Assembly (NCBI GenBank): GCA_030609125.1
Contig: JAUWCW010000141.1
Span: 1-5,783 of the forward strand
From: JAUWCW01 sp030609125 [NCBI: Candidatus Rokuibacteriota bacterium]
GTDB lineage: Bacteria > JAUVQV01
Direction of reading: 5' to 3'
DNA: 5,783 nt
Shown here one piece after another: positions 243-4,405 of the stretch; the stretch's first letter is position 1; the number at the start of each line of letters is the position of its first letter. The notes under the pieces were generated by a model. That model was not told the DNA's origin and made no database searches. It was given only the letters and a program-made list of their open reading frames with translations. Position numbers and translations under genes: made by a program.

Positions 243-947
243 TCACGATTTGCTCACCATCAACAGCTCCTTCAGGCTCCGCACTCCGCACTCGGGCAGA
301 AAGGGCAGGAACCTCTGAAAGAGCTGGGCCGTAACGTAGGCGTCGTACATGGCGTTGTGAGCCTTTTCGACTTCTATCCCGTATTTCCTCGCCAGGGAGA
401 AAAGATCGCTTTTGAGGGACATCCCCTGGTGGTGTCTTGCAAAATGGGAATCGCTCTCGTAGAGCCAGTCGTGAAGCGCCGACGTGTCCACCGAGGGGCT
501 CTGCAGCCCGACGCCGAAGATCCGCTTCATCGCCCGATTGACGAAGTTCACGTCGATGAAGACGAAGTGCCCGACGAGAATGGCGTCGCCGATGAAGTCG
601 ATGAAATCGCAGAGGACTTCCTCGACGGGGTCGGCTTTTTCGAGATCCGAGTGAGTGAGCTCGTGCACCACCACGCCCTGGCTCTTGAGCTCCGAGTCGG
701 GCCGGACGAGCCGGTAGAAGGTCTGCCCCGGCAGGATCCTCCCCCCTCTCATCCGGACGGCCCCGATGGAGATCATTGAATCCCTCTTGAAGTCGAGACC
801 TGTCAGCTCGGTGTCGAAGGCGACGAAGTCCGCCCCTTCGATCGGGGCCTTCAGCTCCAGCCTTTGCTTCAGGCCGCTGTGCCGGGCCACGGGACCAGCG
901 ACTTTCTTTTCCCGATGCCCCATGATCTTCGTAAGGATTGAGCTCAC
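243..947 (-). CDS. DnaQ-like DEDDh 3'-5' exonuclease
   Basis: This 234-aa protein is a single-domain exonuclease of the RNase T/DnaQ epsilon superfamily, which removes nucleotides from 3' ends with two metal ions. All five catalytic residues are visible. ExoI is FDTELTGLD with D45 and E47. ExoII is LVGHFVFIDVNF with D132; the Asn usual after GH is Phe here. ExoIII is HNAMYDAYVTAQLF with H197 and D202. The VHELT segment (94-98) matches the loop before ExoII in epsilon-type enzymes. The first 37 residues are a basic extension without recognised domain. The start is GTG at 947, overlapping the TGA of the DUF294 gene (944-946) by 4 nt, with GGAGG about 10 nt upstream, so translation is probably coupled; ATG at 923 (codon 9) is less likely. 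Automated tools tend to label such genes DNA polymerase III epsilon, but the small size and the transporter-operon context argue against a replicative role. Its substrate here is unknown. Confidence 0.93.
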   Translation of the reverse strand: MSSILTKIMGHREKKVAGPVARHSGLKQRLELKAPIEGADFVAFDTELTGLDFKRDSMISIGAVRMRGGRILPGQTFYRLVRPDSELKSQGVVVHELTHSDLEKADPVEEVLCDFIDFIGDAILVGHFVFIDVNFVNRAMKRIFGVGLQSPSVDTSALHDWLYESDSHFARHHQGMSLKSDLFSLARKYGIEVEKAHNAMYDAYVTAQLFQRFLPFLPECGVRSLKELLMVSKS

Positions 948-2830
948 TTCGCGACCACCTCCGTCGAAAGACTCTTCTCCAGAAGGTCGTACAGCGTGGC
1001 GATGAGATGAAACGTCTCTTTCAGGGTCTTTTTCTCCAGGTTGGCAAGATGCTCGGGATTGATGAAGTTGTCCGGCACGAGCCCCTTCTCGATCTGCTCT
1101 ATCTGGTGATGTATGAGAAGAGTAAGCAGGTACTCCAGGGCGTGATCTATGTCCTCGGTGTGGGCGAAGCTGTACCGCGCCTTGAGCTCGACTACCCTTC
1201 TCCAGGTCGAGTAGTTCTCCACTCCCCTCTGGAGGGCGAATACCCGAACGGCATCGACCAGGGGCCTGATGCCCTTTTCGTAAAGGTTCAGCTCGCTGCG
1301 GTGCTCACCCGATTTCTCCACCACGAACCGCCGGAAGAACCCGAGAGGAGGGCTGTTTTCAATGGTCTGCAGGATGACCACGTCCATCATCGTCCTCCGT
1401 GAGGCCATGTTCTCCAGCAGAGACCGCCGCAGATTCTCCACCGTCTCGCTGTCTCCGCGAACGGGCCTCATGTCCGCGTAGCTCACCTCGATGCGCCGGC
1501 GCCCGGGGGTGGCGGCCCACTGGTCGAACTTCCCCTTCCAGTCCGAGAAGGACATGATGTTTACCGCCGCCAGGCAGTCCGGTCCGCCGGGGTCACCGCA
1601 GGAGGCGACTGTCCGGTCGATCACCTTCTTCAGATCGCCGAAGTAGGCCTCAGCCTCCCTGATGAGCTGCGTGCTCCCGGTATCCTCGTAGACGACTCCC
1701 ATCCGTATCGCCCTGTTGAGCGTCAGCTCCCTCCTTCCACCCTCGTCGAAGAGAAAGAGCGAGTAGTTCACCGGCGGAGACCCGGATTTTCTCTCCGCAA
1801 GATCGATGACCCGGTTGAGCAGCTTCTCCGTCAGCTCCGTGATGATCCCCGTCACGTTGTGAGCCTTCGCACCTTCCCGCAGCAGCGTGGAGACCGTCTT
1901 GTGGATCTTGGGCATGGTGCCGCGCACGTCCTCAAGGCTCTGGATGTTCTCCAACTCCTTCACGAGCACCATGGGCGATGACCCCTGAAGGACCATGAAG
2001 TCATGGTTCGTCAGAATCCCCTTGAACCGGCCGCTTTCCACCACCAGGATGTGGTGGATGTTGTAGCGCATCATCTTCAGGAGCGCCTCGAAACAATATT
2101 CCTCCGCGTCGACCTTGATGAGCGGCGAGCTCATTATCATCCGGACCGGGTGGCTCAAATCAAGACCCTTGGCGACGACTTTCTCGCGCAGGTCCCTGTC
2201 CGTCACGATCCCGACGGGAACGCCTGTCGGGTTCACGATGACCAGGGAGCTGATCTTGTGCTCCGCCATTCTCCGCGCCGCATCCCGTATGCCGAGGCTC
2301 TCCAGGGCGGTTATCGGCTTCTTTCGCACCCCCTCACCCACAGGTGTGGTGAACAGGGCCCTGTCCCCGCCGGTGAGGCCGCTGTACTTCCTCTGTGTCT
2401 CCTCCCTGGTCTTGTCGATGAAACTAATAAAGAAAGACTTCAGGAAATATTCATTAACAGACTGATTTCTCTGGAGAACGGCGAGAAGCTTCTCCTTGGG
2501 TATAAGAAAACTGATGGTGTCTTCAAAGGCCATGATATTGTAGCGGGAGAGGTCGCCGCTCACGAGGGAGAGGAGCCCGAAGTGCTCCCCCTCGCTCCGG
2601 TAGTCGATGTTGATCTCCTCATCCGTCTCGGAGGTCATATAGACCCTGACGCCGCCCCGCTTGATGATGTAGAGAAATTCGCTCGGCGCTCCGCCCTGGG
2701 TGAGGATGTTGACCCCCTTCGGGAAGTACTCGAGAGAGACGTCCTCCACGATTCCCTCCAGTTCCTCCTCCGGAAGGAGGTTAAAGGGTGGGACATTCTT
2801 CAGAAAATCGATAGTTTCGTTCTTCAGCAT
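944..2830 (-). CDS. cNMP-binding / CBS-pair / DUF294 nucleotidyltransferase-like regulatory protein
   Basis: This 628-aa soluble protein has a familiar four-part layout. A cyclic-nucleotide-binding fold spans about 8-135. A CBS pair, normally an adenosine-nucleotide sensor, spans about 163-283, with GIVTDRDLR at 207-215 and GILTNHDF at 271-278. A DUF294 nucleotidyltransferase-like domain spans about 300-465, with YADMRPVRGD at 451-460. The DUF294 C-terminal helical domain spans about 470-615, with LGFFRRFVVEKSGEH at 496-510. The start ATG at 2830 leaves the usual xxIDFLKNVPPF N-terminus and has AAAGGA 5 nt upstream. Two sites look altered. The catalytic strand of the transferase (361-383) keeps GR-x-E-x-T-L and VVYED but carries DE instead of GS and A374/R376 instead of the D-x-D pair. 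The phosphate-binding cassette (FGLLSL, 84-89) lacks the Glu that contacts cAMP ribose in CRP. The protein is therefore likely a nucleotide-responsive regulator rather than an enzyme. It is first in an operon with the exonuclease and symporter, under a sigma-54 promoter. Confidence 0.92.
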   Translation of the reverse strand: MLKNETIDFLKNVPPFNLLPEEELEGIVEDVSLEYFPKGVNILTQGGAPSEFLYIIKRGGVRVYMTSETDEEINIDYRSEGEHFGLLSLVSGDLSRYNIMAFEDTISFLIPKEKLLAVLQRNQSVNEYFLKSFFISFIDKTREETQRKYSGLTGGDRALFTTPVGEGVRKKPITALESLGIRDAARRMAEHKISSLVIVNPTGVPVGIVTDRDLREKVVAKGLDLSHPVRMIMSSPLIKVDAEEYCFEALLKMMRYNIHHILVVESGRFKGILTNHDFMVLQGSSPMVLVKELENIQSLEDVRGTMPKIHKTVSTLLREGAKAHNVTGIITELTEKLLNRVIDLAERKSGSPPVNYSLFLFDEGGRRELTLNRAIRMGVVYEDTGSTQLIREAEAYFGDLKKVIDRTVASCGDPGGPDCLAAVNIMSFSDWKGKFDQWAATPGRRRIEVSYADMRPVRGDSETVENLRRSLLENMASRRTMMDVVILQTIENSPPLGFFRRFVVEKSGEHRSELNLYEKGIRPLVDAVRVFALQRGVENYSTWRRVVELKARYSFAHTEDIDHALEYLLTLLIHHQIEQIEKGLVPDNFINPEHLANLEKKTLKETFHLIATLYDLLEKSLSTEVVAK

Positions 2831-3028: not shown

Positions 3029-4405
3029 CTATTTTGACGGCACCTCGGTGTTCGACGCCGTCGAACGCTTGAATCCCCATTTTTTTCTTTTTTCCCATAG
3101 GGTTTTGCGTGTAATCCCAAGCTTGTCAGCCAGCTCCTGTTCGCCGTACCTGCTCTGGAACGTGGCGATGAATGACCGGATGTACTCCTCTATGGAAAGC
3201 TCTTTCTTCGCCGAATCATCGAGGAAGGATTCCTTCCCCTGGAGGCTGTCGGGAAGGTGCCGCAGGTCGATACCGTCCTCGTCGCAGATGAGGACGGCCC
3301 GTTCGAGGACGTTCTGCAGCTCACGGATGTTGCCGGGCCAGCGGTACGATCTCAGGACAGACATCGCTTCGGGGGAGACCGTCCGCACACCCTTGCCGAA
3401 TTCCCGTGAATACCTCTCCAGGTAGTGCTGGATAAGCTCGGGTATGTCCTCTCTGCGTTCTCTCAGAGGAGGCATGTTGAGGCTGATGACGTTGATCCTG
3501 TAGTAGAGGTCCTCCCTGAATCTTCCACTTTCAACCGCACCCCTGAGGTTCTGGTTTGTCGCCGTGATGAACCGTATGTCCACCCTCCTGAACTTGGTGC
3601 TTCCAAGGGGCCTGATCTGCTGGTCCTCGAAGACCCTGAGGAGCTTCGCCTGCAGGGACGGCGGCATGTCGCCGATCTCATCGAGGAACATCGTCCCCCC
3701 GCTGACATCCTCGAGAAGACCGCTTTTGGCGGCGACGGCCCCCGTAAAAGCTCCCCTGACATAGCCGAAAAGCTCGCTCTCCAGGAGGGTTTCCGGAATG
3801 GCTGAGCAGTTGATGGGGACAAAGGGCATGTCCCTCCTTGAACTGCTCTTGTGAATAACCCGGGCGAAGAGTTCCTTGCCCGTTCCCGTCTCGCCGAGCA
3901 GCAGAACGTTGCTCCGGGTGTCGGCCACTTTTCTTACCTCAGCCACGATGCTCTGCAGGGAGGTCTTCTCCCCGATGATGCTGGAGAAATCGTATTCCTC
4001 GCCGATCTGGCGCTTGAGGAGCACGTTTTCCCTCTCCAGTCTTCTCTGCTTCAGGGCGTTGGCCACGATCTGAAGGATTTCCTCGTGGATGATGGGCTTC
4101 ATGATGTAGTCATAAGCCCCCACCCGGAGGGCCTTGACGGAGGTGTCGATGGAGGCGTATGCGGTTATGACGATGAAGACGACCTCCGGCTGGTTCTCCC
4201 GGATGCGGGTCATCATTTCGATGCCGTCGATCCCGGGGAGGATGATGTCCGAGACGATGATGTCGTACATGGCATCGACCGTCAGGCTGAGCGCCTTCTC
4301 GGCGCTGTCCGCCGTGTCGACCCTGTAGCCCTCCTTGCTGAAGAGCCTCTGCAGAGACTCCCGCAGCGTCTGCTCGTCCTCGACTATCAGAATGCTCTTG
4401 GACAT
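3029..4405 (-). CDS. NtrC-family sigma-54-dependent response regulator
   Basis: This 458-aa protein has the complete three-domain layout. The receiver domain (about 4-118) has acidic residues E9-D10, phospho-acceptor D53, T81 and K103. The AAA+ sigma-54 activation domain (about 141-370) has Walker A GETGTGKE at 171-178, the sigma-54-contacting loop GAFTGA at 218-223, Walker B FLDEIGD at 240-246, the R-finger region FREDLYYRINV at 296-306 and WPGNIREL at 356-363. The Fis-type HTH (about 404-445) has LADKLGITRKTLWEKRKKWG. Phosphorylation by the upstream kinase should allow oligomerisation, ATP hydrolysis and opening of sigma-54 promoters. The ATG at 4405 is preceded by AGGGGG about 7 nt upstream. 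The gap to the kinase stop is 37 bp, so the two genes are probably cotranscribed. The intact GAFTGA loop supports true sigma-54 activation. The nearest candidate target is the promoter at 2845-2860, with presumed binding sites just past this gene's stop codon. Confidence 0.96.
   Translation of the reverse strand: MSKSILIVEDEQTLRESLQRLFSKEGYRVDTADSAEKALSLTVDAMYDIIVSDIILPGIDGIEMMTRIRENQPEVVFIVITAYASIDTSVKALRVGAYDYIMKPIIHEEILQIVANALKQRRLERENVLLKRQIGEEYDFSSIIGEKTSLQSIVAEVRKVADTRSNVLLLGETGTGKELFARVIHKSSSRRDMPFVPINCSAIPETLLESELFGYVRGAFTGAVAAKSGLLEDVSGGTMFLDEIGDMPPSLQAKLLRVFEDQQIRPLGSTKFRRVDIRFITATNQNLRGAVESGRFREDLYYRINVISLNMPPLRERREDIPELIQHYLERYSREFGKGVRTVSPEAMSVLRSYRWPGNIRELQNVLERAVLICDEDGIDLRHLPDSLQGKESFLDDSAKKELSIEEYIRSFIATFQSRYGEQELADKLGITRKTLWEKRKKWGFKRSTASNTEVPSK

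Follow-up and report, generated by a model that had tools for sequence, protein, structure and literature searches.

We know of no target of DUF294 proteins. The closest published relative in role of the protein described here, compared by its published description, is Pflu5625 of Pseudomonas fluorescens, a member of the CrbS/R acetate regulon that, as reported, contains cAMP-binding, CBS and nucleotidyltransferase (NTase) domains and is predicted to regulate proteins by nucleotidylation, and whose deletion hardly affected growth on acetate (PMC5715377). The likeness lies in the same types of domain and, as relatives of the truncated window kinase suggest, in control by a kinase system with an SLC5 domain, alongside a symporter (ActP), but the regulator in the locus studied here is of the sigma-54 type, unlike that of CrbS/R. 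NF45 and NF90 are animal RNA-binding proteins not known to carry cNMP or CBS domains. Their DZF domains, which are not DUF294, are described as pseudo-nucleotidyltransferases that have the NTase fold, have lost the catalytic residues and form heterodimers (PMC11952958). In trypanosomatids, two reports on AdoMetDC and deoxyhypusine synthase describe prozymes, dead paralogues that activate an active one (PMC5201418, PMC3663545). Here too a dead and an intact homologue occur in one genome, but the enzymes are unrelated, and activation was measured in the trypanosomatids, whereas we only infer it for the present protein. The DUF294_C domain has been grouped with HEPN-like domains, and its entry reads 'No' under what seems to be a heading for conserved catalytic motifs (PMC3710099). 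A literature search, judged mostly by listing entries, found no paper about dead DUF294 domains, and a term search of a pseudoenzyme review found no mention of nucleotidyltransferases (PMC10211241).

The DNA analysed here, referred to as the window, is a stretch of 5,783 bases that makes up one entire contig (C256) of a draft genome (G000) of 2.3 Mb in 376 contigs, and all of its genes lie on the minus strand (Table 1). The central gene encodes a protein whose cyclic nucleotide-binding (cNMP), both CBS, DUF294 and DUF294_C domains all exceed the Pfam cut-offs, with 59.9 bits against a cut-off of 21 for DUF294 (PF03445) and 116.3 bits against 22.5 for DUF294_C. Relatives of the truncated histidine kinase are ~980 residues long and have a partial N-terminal SSF/SLC5 match (L080, E 2e-6).

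Table 1. Features of the window, with positions counted from its first base
Feature	Position	Strand	Basis or remark
Sodium:solute symporter gene start, truncated by contig end	1..112	-	start position counted by hand, approximate
DnaQ-like 3'-5' exonuclease, 4-base overlap with preceding gene	243..947	-	ORF, profile match
cNMP-CBS-CBS-DUF294-DUF294_C protein, 628 aa, NTase without D-x-D	944..2830	-	ORF, translation, Pfam
DUF294_C, HEPN-like, putative substrate-binding, residues 489-619	974..1366	-	Pfam; HEPN link from PMC3710099
Third acid D453 (ADMR), kept	1472..1474	-	homologue alignment
DUF294 nucleotidyltransferase domain, residues 308-443	1502..1909	-	Pfam
Degenerate catalytic motif, residues 361-383	1682..1750	-	translation, DNA, homologue alignment
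R376	1703-1705	-	substitutes second D of D-x-D
A374	1709-1711	-	substitutes first D of D-x-D
E363	1742-1744	-	substitutes serine of GS
CBS pair, about residues 165-285	1976..2338	-	Pfam, two CBS stretches, best 169-218; outer limits approximate
Cyclic nucleotide-binding domain, residues 34-122	2465..2731	-	Pfam
Sigma-54 (NtrC-type) response regulator	3029..4405	-	ORF, profile match
Histidine kinase, truncated by contig end	4443..5783	-	ORF, Pfam, relatives

Both the translation and the DNA of the window protein read LFLFDEGGRRELTLNRAIRMGVVYEDT. Residues 361-383, in an open frame, are FDEGGRRELTLNRAIRMGVVYED, and homologues have GSEGRKEQTFKTDQDNAIIYED at these positions, in register. The original prediction had listed D362-E363, R366, E368, T370, L371, A374, R376 and VVYED (379-383) in this strand, all of which are present in translation and DNA, and its reading that D-x-D has become A374-x-R376 and GS has become D362-E363 agrees with an ungapped homologue alignment. 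Absent from the window protein are the D-x-D metal ligands of active GlnE/GlnD-type nucleotidyltransferases and the GS of the nucleotide-binding turn, which is G and S in 62/62 full-length intact rows. The column of D453 is D in 62/62 full-length intact rows, its correspondence to the third acid of GlnE being ambiguous in the alignment; of the 16 rows without both aspartates, 12 have D and 4 have E at this place. In a profile alignment the D-x-D columns coincide with SDID and SDLD, the two such motifs of E. coli GlnE, and the idea that the catalytic aspartates lie elsewhere in the protein was rejected. The hhalign probabilities against single GlnE sequences were modest (8.6% and 64%), so the GlnE fold match weighs more.

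Structure prediction followed by overlay on a known nucleotidyltransferase, proposed as a check in the original prediction, gave a GlnE-like fold. AlphaFold2 was run on the full-length sequence (mean pLDDT 78.3, pTM 0.57, 8 sequences), and after realignment the two best matches of the model were both GlnE (1v4a, Z 26.6 over 324 residues; 3k7d, Z 24.0 over 304), followed by DrrA (6yx5, Z 23.2 over 298 residues); in the plain Foldseek ranking 1v4a came fifth, amid CBS and cNMP structures. The GlnE superposition covers the modelled C-terminal half of the window protein, which is predicted to adopt the NTase fold. The two proteins are alike in the fold of the NTase and C-terminal helical domains and in the aligned D-x-D columns, but both NTase halves of GlnE carry D-x-D, whereas the window domain has A-x-R. 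A sequence search with the C-terminal half for a solved DUF294 structure returned only a designed bundle (E 0.09), and with profile A2 against solved structures the best 60 of 204 matching sequences align best in the cNMP/CBS parts. It is a guess that a salt bridge between E363 and R376 might stand in place of the metal site; of the 8 clade-A members (see below) with R or K at 376, 7 carry E or D at 363.

Homologues were drawn from the public genome collection, 60 relatives of the window genome, a sample of 395 Nitrospirota genomes and Acidobacteriota (Thermoanaerobaculia record), with 297 phylum genomes and 72 order genomes. After removal of copies and contained fragments, and with at least 75% profile coverage required, 265 hits gave 190 distinct rows spanning the NTase and C-terminal domains, compact and other-type DUF294 rows included. 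All three acids are kept in 172/190 rows, a difference between canonical cNMP-CBS-DUF294 proteins and the window protein, which is among the 16 rows without both D-x-D aspartates; one further row lacks the first aspartate and one has N for the second. Two trees were built, both with the motif columns omitted: a quick tree of all 190 rows, and a careful tree of 50 comprising the 16 dead rows, L117, L119 and 32 randomly drawn canonical rows. In these trees 13 of the 16 dead rows, the window included, form a clade spanning three phyla, clade A (SH-aLRT 98 in the quick tree, 100/99 in the careful one). The same gap-free loss in 13 clade members of different genomes rules out chance or sequencing error, in keeping with the original view that a frameshift or sequencing error was unlikely. 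The three remaining dead rows, clade B, stand beside L117, with an intact TDFD, and L119, in which one aspartate is gone (LFD). Because L117, inside the B group (99/93 in the careful tree), keeps D-x-D, the aspartate pair appears from these trees to have disappeared on at least two occasions, and a further loss was partial. Support for joining clade A to the B group is 28 in the quick tree and 97/79 in the careful one, and long branches may attract one another here, though the symporter locus is common to both groups. L117 and L119 could be intermediates, with the partner arriving first and erosion later. The original prediction had asked whether a clade shares the A-x-R substitution; a well-supported clade does share the loss of the active site, but not the exact residues, since position 374 varies and 8/12 full-length members of clade A have R or K at position 376.

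The motif was read in all 102 Nitrospirota-sample genomes with a full-length match among the matches listed, a search in which at most five top candidates were scored per genome (seven in the 297-genome sample), so that second copies were possibly missed. Of these genomes, 89 lie outside the A/B group, 88 of them with D-x-D. The other protein (L193 in G615), outside clades A and B, has an otherwise canonical motif with asparagine for the second aspartate (TDQNN). In the Acidobacteriota order, where all or almost all candidates were scored, 5/72 genomes have a full-length match at 1e-25 with L015 as the query.

Conservation along the protein was compared between 12 of the 13 clade-A rows and 62 intact rows, L073 being left out because it is cut by a contig end. 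The NTase domain is less conserved in clade A, and the sensor domains are not. For the NTase domain the mean top-residue fraction comes to 0.515 in the 12 clade-A rows versus 0.700 ± 0.031 in intact rows (12 drawn, 100 times), and its pairwise identity is 0.29-0.38 versus 0.52-0.63 in matched bins. The corresponding fractions are 0.658 versus 0.626 for the cNMP domain, 0.714 versus 0.665 for the CBS domains and 0.644 versus 0.679 for DUF294_C, so that the C-terminal domain is still conserved, as first described. Within the NTase domain R366, E368, L371, W431 and G459 are invariant in 12/12 clade-A rows, and all 16 dead copies are free of internal stops, with L073 truncated at a contig end. The earlier description as a selected pseudo-enzyme is thus borne out by the absence of stops and by the invariant R366, E368 and L371, but sits less well with an NTase domain far less conserved than that of active homologues. 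From the sequences, we read the protein as one in which catalysis has been lost and the body of the NTase domain retained.

In 9/12 full-length clade-A members the serine of GS (363) has become E or D, a change that should disfavour triphosphate binding, and on this basis such binding was probably lost from the dead domain along with catalysis. The suggestion that the protein acts as a nucleotide sensor through its NTase domain finds no support here; small-molecule sensing more likely sits in the cNMP and CBS domains. R96 of the cNMP domain is kept in 12/12 full-length clade-A proteins (R in 37/62 and K in 16/62 intact rows). The cNMP domain of the window protein carries FGLLSL, where a glutamate of the phosphate-binding cassette would be expected; intact homologues differ at the cassette glutamate too, and it may be that a molecule other than cAMP is bound.

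In most A/B loci in which the sequence beyond the DUF294 gene was read, the genes run SLC5-type kinase, sigma-54 regulator, DUF294 protein, exonuclease, 650-residue symporter and TPR protein. Often a further, convergent gene follows, which encodes a compact CBS-CBS-DUF294-DUF294_C protein of ~510 residues. The compact gene comes immediately after the exonuclease in the Acidobacteriota loci L082-L084. The G515 locus (L081) has the kinase and regulator only, the 14 kb read there holding neither an exonuclease nor a symporter nor a TPR gene, and in the G511 locus (L119) TPR and compact genes were looked for and none was seen. The locus-type symporters of A/B loci are 76-84% identical; one of them (L078) scored below every substrate-specific NCBIfam cut-off listed. 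The exonuclease was also present in 20/20 control loci with a canonical DUF294 gene, one of which was the canonical copy of G515. None of these 20 control loci, several of which run into a contig end, was found to have a locus-type symporter, TPR gene or compact protein of the clade A/B type; a different symporter (20-29% identity) occurred in 8/20, and one (L277) held another, longer type of DUF294 protein with 28% identity. The window contig ends in the N-terminus of the symporter, and a second contig of the same genome (C22, L086) carries a symporter C-terminus, the TPR gene and an intact compact CBS-DUF294 gene. Together, C256 and C22 probably represent opposite ends of a single locus, although C22 could instead belong to a second copy.

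The compact protein retains GSHGR, D-Q-D and the third acid. In the version encoded on C22 the motif is STDQDH and the third acid is D, and the genome of the dead protein thus contains an intact homologue. Across lineages A and B the compact protein is present in 14/18 genomes, and in 10 of those 14 its gene is near the dead gene on the same contig; in G428, G629 and G731 it is on a different contig, where none of the usual locus neighbours was seen next to it. Within the Nitrospirota sample, 11/395 genomes have the compact protein, at 426 bits or more, the next match (251 bits) being of the full-length type; only three candidates were scored per genome in this search, so that a compact protein may have been missed. 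Among the matches listed, it occurs in 10/13 A/B-group genomes versus 0/89 others with a full-length protein (Fisher 1.3e-11, kinship ignored), and the eleventh genome (G647) is without a full-length match at 1e-25. Within the Acidobacteriota order, 3/4 clade-A genomes carry the compact protein, versus 0/1 other with a full-length match at 1e-25 and 0/68 of all remaining genomes, few of which have any full-length protein (further full-length-type matches are found in G805, G784, G785 and G765). No additional compact protein was found in the 297-genome phylum sample (five candidates scored per genome), or, with all or nearly all candidates scored, in 82 genomes of another phylum or in the 60 relatives besides G000. 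The phylum of the window is represented in the sample by one other genome (G001), which encodes four DUF294 proteins with D-x-D in each, and in which the compact partner was not found.

Exceptions occur in both directions. No compact partner was found with the dead proteins of G707 and G515, the latter having a canonical copy elsewhere (L194/L280), and none was seen in G060, where the contig ends inside the exonuclease; G511, with one aspartate lost, likewise has no compact partner found, and G631 has one with D-x-D kept (L117). The association comes from a pair of related lineages, which leaves few independent events behind it. The co-occurrence is a pattern and not proof, and the exceptions argue against a strict rule.

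The dead protein and its compact relative suggest that sensing and catalysis are split between two proteins. We hypothesize, with slightly more confidence than doubt, that the window protein is a ligand-sensing pseudo-nucleotidyltransferase, the gating partner of the compact enzyme in the symporter/two-component locus. Clade A shares the loss of the metal ligands, a loss that occurred at least twice in the family; the dead proteins co-occur with an intact compact protein, and the two genes are frequently linked. The cNMP and CBS domains of the window protein would read the state of a small molecule, and the GlnE-like NTase body and HEPN-like C-terminal domain would be kept as a binding platform without the ligands of the catalytic metal. 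The compact CBS-DUF294 protein, in which GSxGR and D-x-D are kept, would do the catalysis of the pathway. The sensor would bind the compact enzyme or the target of that enzyme in a physical complex, and would allosterically gate nucleotidyl transfer onto a partner from the symporter/two-component locus, the presumed modified target, in a prozyme-like manner. More tentatively, the pair could represent a bacterial prozyme for protein nucleotidylation, with obligate pairing to a compact DUF294 enzyme and with sensor catalysis lost at least twice where loci carry that enzyme; we regard this wider proposal as possible but rather doubtful.

The low conservation of the NTase domain admits a different account, in which the domain is a decaying leftover, redundant once the compact enzyme joined the locus, and now a linker that connects the sensor domains with the C-terminal domain, without a specific partner. 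Its conservation in clade A lies about six standard deviations under draws of active homologues, the reduced pairwise identity points the same way, and TDFD in L117 and LFD in L119 would fit relaxation following the arrival of a partner. However, the reading frame is uninterrupted in all 16 dead copies, the five invariant residues persist, DUF294_C is still conserved, and charge changes recur, with E or D at 363 and R or K at 376; complete decay might moreover have deleted the domain in some members of such a divergent clade. We consider a leftover unlikely, though deserving of attention. The same gain of E or D at 363, with a third position still acidic in all 16 dead rows (12 D, 4 E), could be taken to mean that the protein is still an enzyme, its metal site rebuilt from the migrated acids E363 and D453. 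This is very improbable, as R or K at 376 would compete with the metal, 3/12 members lack E or D at 363, and the clade-A domain has gained no new invariant acid.

It is also conceivable that the dead domain is a scaffold for the exonuclease, the histidine kinase or the symporter, unrelated to the compact enzyme, and that the co-occurrence reflects inheritance as one cassette. The exonuclease adjoins the DUF294 gene in most loci, including all 20 canonical controls, and the compact protein was not found in G707 or G515. Yet an exonuclease that accompanies canonical DUF294 proteins as well does not explain a catalytic loss seen mainly where the compact protein occurs, and the G515 locus has its dead protein without exonuclease, symporter or TPR gene in the 14 kb covered; a scaffold of this kind appears to us improbable. 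An assembly or frame error in a single draft genome might be suspected because the window is one whole contig of a 376-contig assembly, but the loss recurs across the different genomes of clade A, which leaves this explanation with a negligible chance.

If the window protein is indeed a ligand-sensing pseudo-nucleotidyltransferase that gates the compact enzyme, the often linked gene pair offers an experimental handle, in which the compact enzyme should be the writer and the dead protein its ligand-controlled regulator, and a common target of both should be among the small and fairly fixed set of neighbours. A bacterial clade of pseudo-nucleotidyltransferases with canonical relatives and possible intermediates (TDFD, LFD) would also provide a model for catalytic loss after the arrival of a partner.

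Other arrangements of DUF294 genes were seen in the course of the survey. Two canonical full-length genes flank a response regulator in L261, L267, L272, L275 and L279 of the Nitrospirota sample. Some genes with the canonical motif are apparently split or shortened in assembly (L266, 7101-9001, in G427; L019, 6792-8444). A further DUF294 subfamily, mostly of 615-618 residues and with an intact motif (L122, L124, L125, L126, L227, L228 and L229), is present in several genomes of the Nitrospirota sample, in some of which it adjoins a canonical gene.
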